Positions 52,162 through 59,271 of a stretch of DNA of 64,000 bases are shown here, in pieces (position 1 is the first letter of the stretch; each line of letters begins with the position of its first letter). The position numbers were made by a program, and so were the translations under genes. The DNA lies in the NCBI GenBank assembly GCA_026014545.1, contig JAOZIH010000005.1, positions 1-64,000 on the forward strand, read 5' to 3'. The stretch comes from Candidatus Bathyarchaeota archaeon. GTDB taxonomy: Archaea > Thermoproteota > Bathyarchaeia > Bathyarchaeales > Bathycorpusculaceae. Below the pieces are notes generated by a model. The model saw only the letters and a program-made list of their open reading frames with translations. It was not told the origin of the DNA and searched no databases.

Positions 52162-54141
52162 TTACAATAGAAGTGTCAATATTCGAAATGCAATTCCACC
52201 TAAGAGTATCGCGAATATTATTTCAAACAATGTTATAGTCAGCGCTTTTTTCCAGCCGAACTCCTTGACCAGCGCCGCTATGGTTGCTATACACGGTATA
52301 TAGAACATTGCTACTAAAGTGAAAACAACCATCTGCATTGGCGTCAGCGCTTCGGCGAAGTTAGTTGTTCCTAGAAGCGTTGCCAGCATCACTAGTGCTA
52401 GCTCTTTGCGCAGTATACCAAATATCAGCGTTATCCCTGTGATAGCTGGCAAGCCTATCCAAGCTACCGTTATAGGGCTGAGCGCTGCGGCTATGGGCTC
52501 TAGCAATCCTGCAACTTCAGCAAGCTTCAACGCAAAGCTACCTGCAATTATTAGTGGAAAGGCTATCTTTATGAATTCAGCCACTCTGAACCAGGTCTGC
52601 TTTAGGATAGTTTTCATGTGCGGCCAGCGGTAGTCATGCATCTCCATGATTAGCGCCGTCGGCTCTCCAGGAACGACTTTGAACGCCAATCGTCCCAGCA
52701 GGAAGATTATTAGGAAGTTGAAGAGATAGAGTGCCAGCGCCCAGTGAATGCCTAGAAAGTTGCCTACAAGCCCCAGTATGATTACGGTGGTTGCAGCGCA
52801 TGGCACAAGAGTCGTGACGAACGCGGCAAGTAGCCTCTCTCGTTGTGTTTCCATTATTCTGCATCCTAAGCAGGCGGGTACATTGCAGCCGAAGCCGAGC
52901 ATGATGGGGATGAAAGCTTTCCCATGCAAACCCATTTTATGCATGATGTTGTCCATTAGGAATGCGATGCGGCTTAGGTATCCTGAGTTCTCGAGAAAGT
53001 AGAGTATGAGATAAAAAGGGATTATGTAGGGCAAGACTATTGTGATGCCTGCGATTAGCCCTTCCATGACGCCGCCCCAAACTAATGCGCCAATAATTCC
53101 CGTTCCGAAAGCGCTGCGCACAAGCGGCTCTAAGCCATAGAGTAAATCACTAAGTACGCTTGAGGTTACGTCTCCAAAGGTAAAGATGCCGTAGAAAACT
53201 AGTACAAGCGAAAAAATCATTGTTAGGTAGCCGGTGATTTTGTGAGTTGTAAAACTATGCACGCGTTCGCCTATGGTGGGCTTTATAGGCGGCACCATTG
53301 TTTGCACTGCTCTTGCTATGCAGCCAGCCGCTTCGTATCTCTCAGAGGTTATCACAGTTGAGCATCCGTGGCCATGGAGCTTCTCAATTTCTGATGCAAG
53401 CTTTTTGGCTGTAGCGACTACTTGCGGTGCAACTCGGTTAATCTCTCTTTCTATATCTTCATCCCCTTCCAGCAGCTTGATAGCCGTGTACCGACGTGGA
53501 TAAATAAGTTCAGCGTCTTTCATCGCATCTATGAGTAGACTTATTTTTTCTTCTATCTCTTCCCCATACCTTATCTCGGCTGGTTTTTTATCTGGTGCCT
53601 TTTCGATTATTTCGATGGCTTTCTCTAGGAGTTTGTCAATGCCTACGCCTTTAACCGCGATTGTTGGCACGACGGGTACTCCCAAAATCTGCTCCATCTT
53701 CTTAATGTCCACATTGATGCCCTTGCTTTTCGCGATGTCCATCTGGTTCAACGCAACTATCATCGGTGTTTCCAGTTCCATAAGCTGTAAAGTGAAGAAG
53801 AGATTTCTCTCGAGCACCGATGCGTCCACAACGTTTATCACAATGTCTGGCTGCTCAACTGCTATGTATTTTCTTGAGACAATCTCCTCCAGCGAATAAG
53901 TGGACAGCGAGTATATTCCCGGCAAATCTACAATGTCTATTGTGTACCCCTTAAACTGAAGCGTTCCTTCTGCCTTTTCAACTGTTTTTCCCGGCCAGTT
54001 ACCTATATGCTGATGCAATCCTGTTAAATGGTTAAAAATCACGGATTTTCCAACATTAGCGTTTCCAGCCAATGCTATCTTAAGGTGCCTTGCTTTCTGG
54101 CTACTACTTTTCTTGTTTAATGGACAAGAGTGGCATGACAT
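52162..54141 (-). CDS. feoB: Ferrous iron transporter FeoB
   Basis: An N-terminal cysteine pair (MSCHSC) precedes the G-domain: GNANVGKS (G1), DLPGIYSLS (G3) and NQMD (G4). Then come a helical GDI-like spacer and the membrane part with the two Gate motifs, the first including GFGCNVPACLGCR. GTP hydrolysis drives or gates Fe2+ import. The ATG at 54141 is chosen over GTG 54150 because AGGTGA is five bases upstream of it. It follows the DtxR-FeoA gene within 15 bases, so both are on one mRNA. No free FeoA gene is present; the FeoA domain sits on the regulator. Confidence 0.96.
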   Translation of the reverse strand: MSCHSCPLNKKSSSQKARHLKIALAGNANVGKSVIFNHLTGLHQHIGNWPGKTVEKAEGTLQFKGYTIDIVDLPGIYSLSTYSLEEIVSRKYIAVEQPDIVINVVDASVLERNLFFTLQLMELETPMIVALNQMDIAKSKGINVDIKKMEQILGVPVVPTIAVKGVGIDKLLEKAIEIIEKAPDKKPAEIRYGEEIEEKISLLIDAMKDAELIYPRRYTAIKLLEGDEDIEREINRVAPQVVATAKKLASEIEKLHGHGCSTVITSERYEAAGCIARAVQTMVPPIKPTIGERVHSFTTHKITGYLTMIFSLVLVFYGIFTFGDVTSSVLSDLLYGLEPLVRSAFGTGIIGALVWGGVMEGLIAGITIVLPYIIPFYLILYFLENSGYLSRIAFLMDNIMHKMGLHGKAFIPIMLGFGCNVPACLGCRIMETQRERLLAAFVTTLVPCAATTVIILGLVGNFLGIHWALALYLFNFLIIFLLGRLAFKVVPGEPTALIMEMHDYRWPHMKTILKQTWFRVAEFIKIAFPLIIAGSFALKLAEVAGLLEPIAAALSPITVAWIGLPAITGITLIFGILRKELALVMLATLLGTTNFAEALTPMQMVVFTLVAMFYIPCIATIAALVKEFGWKKALTITLFEIIFAILLGGIAFRILTLLL

Positions 54142-54153
54142 AAAATTCACCTG

Positions 54154-54879
54154 TTAGTCAGCTACTGGGCTTTCTACTTCTACAAAAATCTTCGAGGCAA
54201 CACCTTTTCCAATGGCAAGTTTTGAATCTCGCACCGCCAGCTCGACGGGCCCTCCAAGCGGCGCAATTCTGACGATGCAGATTCTCGTGCCCGGCGTAAG
54301 CCCCATATCCAAAAGACGCTGAACCATGTTGCGGCCGCCTCTGATGAACGCGATTTTACCGCATTGCCCTTCTTTGAGACTGCTTATGGCAATTAGCCTC
54401 TGATTATGCTTCCCCTCTTCCTCCAAGCCTTTTTCGTGTAGCTGTATGCATTTGGCACAACTTTCTATTTGGAGATTGCAGGGCGGGATCATTTTTCCGT
54501 CGTCTGGGCAGCTGTCAGGATGCCTCAGAAATCTGCACAGCGACTCTTCTGCCTCGTCTGAAAGGGAATGCTCCATTTCGCAAGCTTGACTGTGGACTTT
54601 TTCTTTGTCAATTTTTAAAACATCATGTAAAAAGCGTTCTAGTAAGCGGTGTTTGCGTACTATTTTTTCAGCAATTCGTCGTCCTTCACTTGTTAAGGTT
54701 GTTCCGTGATATGGAGAGTATGTGATGTAGCCTTTGTTGGCGAGTTTTTTCAGCATCTCGGTTACGCTGGCTGGAGCTATCTTTAATGTTTGCGAAATTT
54801 CTGTGGTGCCTACTGCTTTTCCGTTTTGAGACAGTTCATATATTGTTTTTAAGTAGTCTTCACTGCTTTTTTGCGTCAT
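54154..54879 (-). CDS. DtxR/MntR-type metal-dependent repressor with C-terminal FeoA domain
   Basis: The N-terminal winged HTH (residues about 3-65, ISQTLKIAPASVTEMLKKLA) is followed by the metal-binding and dimer domain: HRLLERFLHDVLKID and EMEHSLSDEAEESLCRFL, with His, Glu and Cys ligands. A cysteine cluster CPDDGKMIPPCNLQIESCAK is in the linker. The SH3-like FeoA domain covers about 165-240 (GLTPGTRICIVRIAPLGGPV). Iron-bound protein should repress feoB and itself. Two matching operators lie 12-76 bases upstream of its start. Confidence 0.93.
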   Translation of the reverse strand: MTQKSSEDYLKTIYELSQNGKAVGTTEISQTLKIAPASVTEMLKKLANKGYITYSPYHGTTLTSEGRRIAEKIVRKHRLLERFLHDVLKIDKEKVHSQACEMEHSLSDEAEESLCRFLRHPDSCPDDGKMIPPCNLQIESCAKCIQLHEKGLEEEGKHNQRLIAISSLKEGQCGKIAFIRGGRNMVQRLLDMGLTPGTRICIVRIAPLGGPVELAVRDSKLAIGKGVASKIFVEVESPVAD

Positions 54880-57747: not shown

Positions 57748-58548
57748 TTAGCTCAGCTCTACCTCTTGAATGAAGCTTCCATGCCATGTGTGATACCATA
57801 TTTGCCCTGTATAGCCATTAACGCTGAGCATTCCATAGACTTTGCCGCCTGAGAGCACCGTAATATGATAGTAACCGTAGAAGGCTTCAGCTTTCTCAGC
57901 TGTGGTTCCTAGATAATAACTGTCCAAGTATTGCTGGGCAATGGCTTTTGCTTGCTGCGCAGTTATCGTCATTGGCGCTGTCGGGCTTCCTATGAACCAA
58001 CCCATCATGCCGCTGTGCATGCCATATTTAGTGTTCCACATCATATTTGGACCCATTTCAGGATAGATGCGGCCGCTATACTTGTCAATGAGCATTTCGA
58101 AAGCGCCGACTCCCGTGCTTCTCTCGTAATATTGCACATAGAAATTCAGTGTGTACTCTTCAACTTCTTTCACGGCTAAATCTGGATTGTTCAGTTGTAG
58201 CAGATATTGCTGCGCAATTGTTACTGCGGTGTCTATTGGTATAGGCGCCGAAGTGGCTCCGCCGCTTTGAGTGGGTGGTGTGACGTAAGTGTTCCAGCCT
58301 AGTCCTCTGTGGCAGCCTCCTCTATATGCGTACGGCGCAGGCGTATTTGGTTGATTGGGATATTGCTGGTATCCATAAGTATTCCACATCATCCCACCCA
58401 TCATTCCATATGGATAAGCGCCGTTAGCGTAGGTTCCATACAAGTGGTATGCATTTTGTCCGTTCACGTAGGCAAACACCGAAACAGTTAACAACGCTGC
58501 AGCTGCTACCGTGATTACTGCGGCAACGAGTATTTTCCAGCTTTTCAT
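57748..58548 (-). CDS. Exported PepSY-like protein rich in Met, Tyr and Gly
   Basis: The signal segment covers residues about 4-26. It is followed by a Met/Tyr/Gly/Pro-rich stretch (GMMGGMMWNTYGYQQYPNQP) and two copies of a PepSY-like motif: PIDTAVTIAQQYLLQLNNPD (about 103-122) and TAQQAKAIAQQYLDSYYLG (about 199-217), each followed by a beta hairpin ending in YSGRIYPE or YTGQIWYH. Such domains often inhibit peptidases or bind metal near the membrane. It is divergent from the membrane-bound winged-helix gene, which also has a GMxxHMSGMMGG segment. The ATG has AGGTGA six bases upstream. Confidence 0.75.
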   Translation of the reverse strand: MKSWKILVAAVITVAAAALLTVSVFAYVNGQNAYHLYGTYANGAYPYGMMGGMMWNTYGYQQYPNQPNTPAPYAYRGGCHRGLGWNTYVTPPTQSGGATSAPIPIDTAVTIAQQYLLQLNNPDLAVKEVEEYTLNFYVQYYERSTGVGAFEMLIDKYSGRIYPEMGPNMMWNTKYGMHSGMMGWFIGSPTAPMTITAQQAKAIAQQYLDSYYLGTTAEKAEAFYGYYHITVLSGGKVYGMLSVNGYTGQIWYHTWHGSFIQEVELS

Positions 58549-58599
58549 TCGATTTCACCTCTACCCTTTATTGCAGTAGCGGCTGGTAAAAGAGTTCGC

Positions 58600-58628
58600 T
58601 GAAACAATTCTGAAACATTTTTGAAACA
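58600..58628. repeat. Three TGAAACA repeats at 11-bp spacing
   Basis: TGAAACA occurs at 58600, 58611 and 58622, one copy per helical turn. GTTCGC lies directly before the first (58594-58599) and directly after the last (58629-58634). The site lies between the two divergent genes and likely binds a regulator, perhaps the winged-helix protein encoded next to it. Confidence 0.6.
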
Positions 58629-58707
58629 GTTCGCGCATGGTAGAAACGTCAATTTTTGGACAATAGGTTTAAATTTAAAGTAAACAATTTTTTTGTTTAG
58701 AGTATTT

Positions 58708-59271
58708 ATGCAGAAAATTCACGTATTTTTGCTCCTCCTATTAGTTTCACTTGTATCATTAGCAATCCTAAGCGTGGCAGGCTTCTACTTGCTGGCGGCA
58801 TCGCCGTACCCATCAAGTTGGATGAGTGGCATGTGGAGTCACATGAGCGGCATGATGGGCGGTGCACCAGTTACAACCCAAAATCCAGCGGTTCTCTATT
58901 TCGGCGCTCTTTTTGTAATTCTAATAGTTATTATCATAATCAGCATCGTAGGCTTAGTATACTTCGCATTTCCCGCAATTAAAACAGCAACTCCCTCCGT
59001 ATCCGTAGCCACCGAAAATCCTGCTCTACAAGGCACGATTACGCCATATGATTCTGTGATTAAGACTCTAACGGATGAAGAACGCAAGGTCATCGAAGTG
59101 CTGAAGGCGCATGATGGAAAATACTTGCAAAAGTATCTTCGGAAAGAAGCGGGGCTCAGCAGGCTTAAGACGCATAGAATTCTCGTCCGCTTAGCAGAAA
59201 GGGGCATAGTGAAGCTAGAAAAGTTTGGAAACACAAACCAAGTGGTGCTGGCAGATTGGCTCCGCGACTAA
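58708..59271 (+). CDS. Membrane-anchored winged-helix regulator
   Basis: There are two transmembrane helices (residues about 5-28 and 53-85), with the extracellular loop WMSGMWSHMSGMMGG between them, likely a metal or redox sensor because of its Met and His content. The cytosolic C-terminus (about 110-187) is a winged HTH: TDEERKVIEVLKAHDGKYLQ and AGLSRLKTHRILVRLAERGI. It probably binds DNA while held in the membrane. The ATG at 58708 suits the TATA-like TTTAAATTTAAAG at 58668-58680, giving a leaderless message; TTG 58693 is the longer option. Confidence 0.8.
   Translation: MQKIHVFLLLLLVSLVSLAILSVAGFYLLAASPYPSSWMSGMWSHMSGMMGGAPVTTQNPAVLYFGALFVILIVIIIISIVGLVYFAFPAIKTATPSVSVATENPALQGTITPYDSVIKTLTDEERKVIEVLKAHDGKYLQKYLRKEAGLSRLKTHRILVRLAERGIVKLEKFGNTNQVVLADWLRD

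Follow-up and report, generated by a model that had tools for sequence, protein, structure and literature searches.

The repeat locus and its two genes

The window (the whole stretch of DNA that was analysed, 64,000 nucleotides) belongs to contig C6 of a genome of 1.86 Mb (41 contigs). It contains a gene for an exported protein and, divergent from it, a gene for a membrane-tethered regulator. Between the two genes, the heptamer TGAAACA occurs three times in 11-bp steps, at 58600, 58611, and 58622 (span 58600-58628). The features of the locus are as follows.

57748..58548, minus strand: exported protein, 266 aa, with an N-terminal hydrophobic signal segment, a Met/Gly/Tyr-rich stretch, and two PepSY-like domains
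58585..58593, minus strand: probable TATA-like element of the exported gene, reading TCTTTTACC toward the gene; assigned from the consensus of 45 promoters, to which it is a weak match
58594..58599, plus strand: conserved GTTSGC extension between the putative operator and the TATA-like element of the exported gene; G, T, and T are each found in 43/45 arrays
58600..58606, plus strand: TGAAACA, putative operator copy 1, the copy closest to the exported gene
58611..58617, plus strand: TGAAACA, putative operator copy 2
58622..58628, plus strand: TGAAACA, putative operator copy 3; at least three relaxed copies within 58 bp occur in 33/45 arrays
58667..58679, plus strand: probable TATA element of the regulator gene, GTTTAAATTTAAA
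58708..59271, plus strand: membrane-tethered regulator, 187 aa, with a transmembrane (TM) helix (2-30), an outer loop, a second TM helix (60-87), a linker, and a winged helix (113-187, DUF7343)
58813..58887, plus strand: outer loop of the regulator, residues 36-60, with SSWMSGMWSHMSGMMGG as its core; candidate Met/Trp/His metal site

The original prediction, made from the letters of the window, had described the two divergent genes and the triple repeat. Homologs of both genes were found by protein search, and the three copies were confirmed at their positions. The exact triple occurs only once in the 1.86-Mb genome, and the reversed control does not occur at all. Within the window, about 1e-7 such triples are expected by chance at the fixed spacing, given the word's own frequency; the figure rises to 0.007 when every 7-mer and every constant spacing between 7 and 20 bp is allowed. 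The array had also been described as bordered by GTTCGC on both sides. Both copies are indeed present (58594-58599 and 58629-58634), but only the left one is conserved; the right one is absent in a relative from the same genus (L003), and it looks like a chance occurrence. We therefore rejected a symmetric GTTCGC-bordered element, since the right copy is conserved neither in that relative nor in the alignment of 45 arrays described below. The left extension reads GCGAAC toward the exported gene and may hold the BRE. TGAAACA itself was rejected as a mere BRE, because it occurs in 2-4 phased copies that are oriented as TGTTTCA toward the exported gene. On the regulator side, a TTTAAAT or CTTAAAT element is found at the same place as the probable TATA element in L003, L007, L008, and L011.

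In the exported protein, a GMMGGMM stretch follows the N-terminal hydrophobic segment, and the PepSY-like domains occupy about residues 102-163 and 197-264. The Pfam PepSY model (PF03413) gave 19.8 bits for the window protein, under the curated cut-off of 24, and matched 7 of 15 aligned relatives (alignment A3) at E <= 0.01. The structure model of the protein contains two helix-plus-sheet repeats (mean pLDDT 62). Its best Foldseek match, the C-terminal domain of YpeB (5boi), had an E-value of 1.2e-3 and a probability of 1.00, yet a TM-score of only 0.21-0.25. Two motifs, PNMMWN and W-x-H-x-W-H-G, are conserved in the 15-member alignment on an otherwise variable Met/Gly-rich background, and their residues could form a metal site.

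For the regulator, the ATG at 58708 was the best start, and a TTG start at 58693 was rejected. The protein matched DUF7343 (PF24034) with 40.2 bits (curated cut-off, 27.6), and all 34 members of the regulator alignment A2 matched the same family at E <= 0.01. Two hydrophobic helices were recognized both by hydropathy and in the structure model; basic residues near both inner helix ends would fit an outer loop and a cytoplasmic DNA-binding domain. A predicted TM region and a predicted DNA-binding domain are thus combined in one protein, as in the definition of transmembrane transcription regulators (TTRs). The outer loop carries W-M-x2-M-W-x2-M plus an MMG motif. The winged helix was modelled at a pLDDT of 92-94 over most of its length, and the linker is of low confidence. 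With regard to the helical region by which MarR proteins dimerize, the monomer model shows only a helix at 113-120 before the winged helix and one at 183-186 after it. The winged helix has a MarR-like fold, and its best match in the structure search was 9u7b (Z 10.8, rmsd 1.5, 70 residues). Many MarR chains had Z-scores of about 10, and archaeal RosR and TFE-alpha were in the same range; thus, the MarR-like fold is not specific. The MarR_2 Pfam model stayed below threshold (15.6 bits; curated cut-off, 27), and a receiver domain was not found among the Pfam matches to the 187-aa protein at E <= 1. A PDB search with alignment A1 was set aside, as it gave opsin matches via the TM helices, plus one MarR. 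Across the regulators of all the clades described below, hardly any variation is seen in the recognition-helix region, LSRxKTHR.

The array across Bathyarchaeia and its relation to the regulator

The two-copy pattern TGAAACRNNNNTGAAACR gave 95 matches in 41 of the 162 genomes of the order, and the reversed pattern gave nine. When five upstream bases were added and one base was relaxed, this extended pattern gave 61 matches in 34 of the 256 genomes of the class and none in the reversed form. The array was found across the class Bathyarchaeia and in two MAGs labelled as Thaumarchaeota. The fetched loci contained 66 distinct arrays, of which the 45 that precede an exported-type ORF were tabulated. 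Four arrays (in L064 and in the clade C loci L078, L084, and L089) were set aside from the tabulation, and 17 without a recognizable exported start were dropped; some of the latter are chance-like sites inside genes, and others lie at contig ends or before a broken gene.

In 41 of the 45 tabulated genes, the consensus GTTSGC-TGAAACR-N4-TGAAACR... precedes the start codon by 46-66 bp. At random positions in the same kind of loci, an exported-like start was found within 160 bp in 224/3000 cases, and at 46-66 bp in 26/3000. Seen from the exported gene, the order is the TGTTTCA copies, GCSAAC, a T/A-rich TATA-like element, and the start codon. In the alignment of the 45 arrays, TGAAAC is invariant by search design; the seventh base is A in 38 and G in 7, the last two positions of GTTSGC are G in 38/45 and C in 38/45, and T is found at -13 in 43/45 promoters. 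Tandem 7-bp direct repeats with a 4-bp spacer are thus present, and copies beyond the searched pair also follow at 12 or 13 bp. The spacings between copies were 11 in 65 cases, 13 in 9, 12 in 7, 10 in 2, and 22 in 1, including the searched pair; as all 45 arrays were selected with an exact 11-bp pair, only the copies beyond this pair are evidence for the spacing. The original prediction had named the absence of the repeat from orthologous intergenic regions as an observation against it. Such an absence was not seen, and the repeat is conserved in the orthologous promoters.

The array also follows the presence of the regulator. We divided the regulators into clades A (Met-loop type), B, and C from alignments A1 and A2; the unaligned genomes were assigned by their match range. 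The array was found in 24 of 25 genomes with an A-type regulator and in 17 of 137 without one (Fisher's exact test, 1e-16, which ignores relatedness). Within genus g12, the corresponding counts were 12/12 and 2/20. Class-wide, 28 of 39 genomes with an A or C regulator had the array, versus 6 of 217 others; these counts also ignore shared ancestry. The search for PepSY genes, which were chosen by protein similarity, gave 40 match rows corresponding to 34 genes; 29 were scored, three more, in G122, have triple arrays, and two were left out. At least two copies preceded 17 of 19 PepSY genes in genomes with an A regulator versus 1 of 10 elsewhere, a contrast that is confounded in that the genes without the array are mostly also more distant relatives. 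In G141, which has no regulator match, the PepSY promoter retains one intact and one decayed copy.

There are exceptions. An A-type regulator occurs without an array in G010 (75% complete), the array is accompanied by only a B-type regulator match in G019, and in G027 (92% complete) and G127 (85%) arrays were found but no regulator match was. In G027 (L168, 2550-3110), a four-copy array precedes an acidic Trp/Met exported gene that appears, by eye, to be broken. The reading of the regulator as a membrane-spanning protein, with the phased repeat as its putative operator, is supported by the conservation of the repeat in promoters and by its co-occurrence with the regulator.

The array does not depend on the neighbourhood of the regulator gene. 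In G014, G038, and G058, the PepSY gene has the array and the regulator gene lacks it. The regulator genes of G014 and G038 each adjoin a same-strand gene without a proper array, and the PepSY gene with its array is on another contig. The PepSY genes of G014 and G058 are flanked as in the window, by a dehydrogenase-type gene and a diphthamide-synthase-type gene. G122 has 10 extended sites and two regulator matches, and in the Bathyarchaeum tardum enrichment (G080; L061) two triple arrays lie about 0.7 and 1.1 kb from the regulator gene. Because the array accompanies the exported gene even where the regulator is encoded at another place, the regulation would be in trans, and the array would be a trans-read operator of exported genes, numbering up to 10 extended sites in a single genome. 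A divergent-promoter model acting only in cis was rejected for the same reason. The proposal that the array controls both genes therefore holds in part: the array belongs to the promoter of the exported gene, but it would be part of a trans regulon and not of one shared divergent promoter. The separation of the two genes, named beforehand as evidence against the proposal, does occur in several genomes, yet we take it as support for action in trans. The array is not found at the own promoter of several A-type regulator genes (among them those in L055, L056, L058, L061, L062, L065, and L068); thus, autoregulation is not general. In the window's own genome, a search for further targets with the relaxed pattern gave only sites on C3, C34 (18 bases), and C33 (20 bases). 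All of them are within or overlap long ORFs, so a single target is seen in this genome.

Regulator clades and the genes behind the arrays

The outer loops of the three clades differ in their Met content: all 18 clade A loops contain 3-7 Met residues, clade B loops contain 0-2 (n=7), and clade C loops contain none (n=9). Clade B loops are of the GGFGGRGHGMG type. In the clade B loci that we read, the layout TGTAACR-N2/3-YGTTTCA-N5-TGAAACR adjoins the CTTATAA box of the regulator gene, and a Cys-rich exported protein is encoded divergently. This layout was found in 15 of 16 clade B genomes and in 0 of 146 others, and control matches were zero. The third copy directly abuts the CTTATAA box in these loci, and autorepression is thus predicted in clade B.

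Clade C consists of regulators from soil Bathyarchaeota and Thaumarchaeota MAGs, in which an operon encoding a membrane protein and the regulator is preceded by a TGTATCA-N4-CGTTTCA pair. Of the 17 loci, most have the 11-bp pair; L075 and L079 are truncated at a contig end, and L085, which contains a run of N, has no pair at 11 bp. In L078, L081, L084, L087, and L089, the regulator is a downstream gene of the operon, a multi-helix membrane protein comes first, and TGATACR/TGAAACR pairs lie ahead. Autoregulation is plausible in clades B and C. The two sister clades keep the repeat in altered layouts while the outer loops and target genes differ.

The exported proteins behind the arrays include Met-rich PepSY proteins, small Cys- or Met-rich proteins, acidic Trp/Met-rich proteins, and a cupredoxin (L066). 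The exported proteins next to the A-type regulators in L066 and L067 are both cupredoxins (PF00127; E 1.4e-12 and 1.7e-10), and the one in L067 has three copies ahead at spacings of 23 and 12. A SHOCT protein in L039 has its own array. Some loci adjoin genes for metal transport: two P-type ATPases, one with two HMA domains, lie beside L063, L064 adjoins a cation-efflux gene, and the array in L176 adjoins a P-type ATPase; these are case-by-case observations with no background rate. In the window, the nearest metal genes, for FeoB and a DtxR-FeoA fusion regulator (52162-54879), are concerned with iron and lie at a distance of about 3 kb; the TGAAACA array was not found at them. From their composition and neighbours, the exported proteins behind the arrays probably handle metal, and a copper-like metal is our favourite ligand.

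Sensing of metal or redox state through Met residues, as originally proposed, is plausible in clade A only; the repeat persists in clades B and C, whose loops have few or no Met residues. As clade C keeps it with a Met-free loop, Met sensing need not be ancestral.

Some further observations were made on the neighbouring genes. The clade B loci L092 (4353-6456) and L049 adjoin an SBF-type transporter gene, which we read as ACR3-like, and ArsR-type genes, and a VIT family gene lies near L092. These clade B neighbours suggest a metalloid or iron context. In genus g12 (L170, L171, L172, L173, L175, and L176), an ArsR-type HTH gene lies downstream of the array-bearing PepSY gene in the same direction and might add another level of regulation. 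Behind the array, many small exported proteins that look unrelated carry a short Gly/Arg/Trp/Cys tail at their end (GCWGW, CWGR, PCWAR, RFW, or GRCW; found in L037, L038, L040, L113, L129, L151, L183, L194, and L224), which could be a common tag for C-terminal processing or for metal.

Proposed mechanism and comparison with known systems

We consider it reasonably probable that a transmembrane one-component regulator binds the TGAAACR array, senses an outer signal, likely a soft metal, and most likely activates an exported Met-rich PepSY-like protein that would bind metal. In the mechanism proposed from these comparisons, two membrane helices would carry the short outer loop, and the C-terminal DUF7343 winged helix would lie in the cytoplasm and bind polar 7-bp TGAAACR sites, arranged head to tail every 11 bp, or about one helical turn. 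This spacing would place several tethered monomers on the same side of the double helix, immediately upstream of the BRE/TATA elements that serve the exported-protein genes, where they would recruit basal factors. In clade A, the signal at the outer loop would most likely be a soft metal, such as Cu(I) on Met/Trp/His, or a linked redox state; W-M-x2-M-W-x2-M plus MMG is a candidate Cu(I)/Ag(I) site. The signal would alter the clustering or the DNA engagement of the regulator, and the exported Met-rich PepSY-like protein, most likely activated in response, would bind metal outside the cell.

The direction of the control has to be weighed against the position of the copies. Copy 1 lies about 6 bp from the TATA-like element and adjoins the possible BRE, and in clade B the third copy abuts the regulator's CTTATAA box, a classic place for autorepression. 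Both positions would suit the same regulator on the same operator acting as a repressor, with copy 1 blocking TFB/TBP until the signal lifts the repression. However, the arrays of the exported genes extend upstream from the TATA in 2-4 copies, into the region where the archaeal activators ArnR and EarA are described to bind, and a repressor would not need copies 2-4 there; we regard repression as unlikely. The protein on the array might also be another, soluble regulator, such as the ArsR-type protein of g12, with the membrane protein merely co-travelling with the regulon. The ArsR-type gene lies directly downstream of the PepSY gene in G122, G123, G131, and G133, and the arrays of G019, G027, and G127 occur without an A-type regulator match, as such a binder would allow. 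Against it, an ArsR-type gene was not seen in the ORF lists beside the arrays of G000, G014, G019, G043, G050, G056, G058, and G071. Moreover, three regulator clades keep TGAWACR pairs despite their different targets, and LSRxKTHR is near-invariant in the same proteins. A soluble binder thus seems quite improbable.

As to the signal, the outer loop may sense something other than metal: a redox state or oxidant, the state of the cell envelope, or the exported protein itself as a CpxP-like feedback partner. In the CpxP/CpxA system, an exported protein is divergently encoded with a membrane sensor, a likeness that we counted for non-metal sensing. The loops of clades B and C, with few or no Met residues, point the same way, as do the Cys-rich targets of clade B and the multi-helix membrane proteins controlled in clade C. 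In clade A, however, the targets are largely Met-rich proteins or cupredoxins, and some loci adjoin metal pumps, so that non-metal sensing appears somewhat doubtful. We continue to favour activation by the membrane-tethered regulator in response to a soft metal in clade A.

Taken over the three clades, the comparisons tentatively suggest a modular, class-wide switch family, in which the winged helix and the TGAAACR operator are fixed and the extracellular loop and the controlled protein co-vary. Such a family would signal outer metal or redox state directly without a kinase, with several clustered tethered monomers per promoter. In this modular reading, a Met loop would be paired with Met-rich PepSY proteins or cupredoxins, an RGHGM-type loop with Cys-rich proteins, and a short hydrophobic loop with a membrane-protein operon. 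The family would be a natural loop-swap series on one DNA-binding domain, and thus a way into how membrane-tethered regulators signal. The DUF7343 domain also gains a testable function. Bathyarchaeia are abundant, and none had been isolated in pure culture as of 2023 (PMC10477458). Tests in a heterologous system and in the Bathyarchaeum tardum enrichment are now possible, as the regulator, the putative operator, and the set of targets are defined.

In the limited open-access literature that was searched, we found no description of DUF7343, the TGAAACA repeat, or such a system. Several known systems share parts of it. In the copper-related CopM/CopRS system of Synechocystis (PMC4335983), a copper-binding protein is likewise encoded with the sensor system that controls it. 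CopRS is a two-component system, whereas here sensor and DNA binder would be one protein, copper is a putative ligand, and the exported protein is PepSY-like. The sites bound by PhoP of Mycobacterium tuberculosis are direct repeats of a 7-bp motif separated by 4 bp (PMC4832192), a geometry identical to that of TGAAACR-N4. PhoP is, however, a soluble two-component response regulator, and the present protein is a membrane-anchored DUF7343 protein in which no receiver domain was found. EarA of Methanococcus maripaludis is an archaeal activator with four copies of a short site upstream of the promoter, although it controls the fla operon through a different site, TACATA (PMC6396743).

Transmembrane one-component regulators are a known kind. 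TTRs have been surveyed and reported to be widespread in archaea (PMC10269533), and, as proposed for the present case, a TTR acts from the membrane as a single protein with both a TM region and a DNA-binding domain. The passages of the survey considered here name no DUF7343 family, operator, or metal-related regulon, whereas here an operator, targets, and three loop clades are proposed by comparison. ArnR and ArnR1 of Sulfolobus acidocaldarius are archaeal membrane-bound one-component regulators with two TM helices, and activate surface-structure genes from paired sites at -43 to -84 upstream of the BRE/TATA (PMC6396743). The array, just upstream of the TATA-like element, lies in a region comparable to this ArnR site (-43 to -84). 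Domain order, site type, and targets set the present family apart from ArnR. In ArnR, an N-terminal HTH is followed by a HAMP and a sensor domain and by two C-terminal TM helices, and the sites are 15-bp inverted repeats (PMC6396743), whereas here the TM helices come first and the HTH last, and direct repeats precede genes for exported proteins of the putative metal-binding type.
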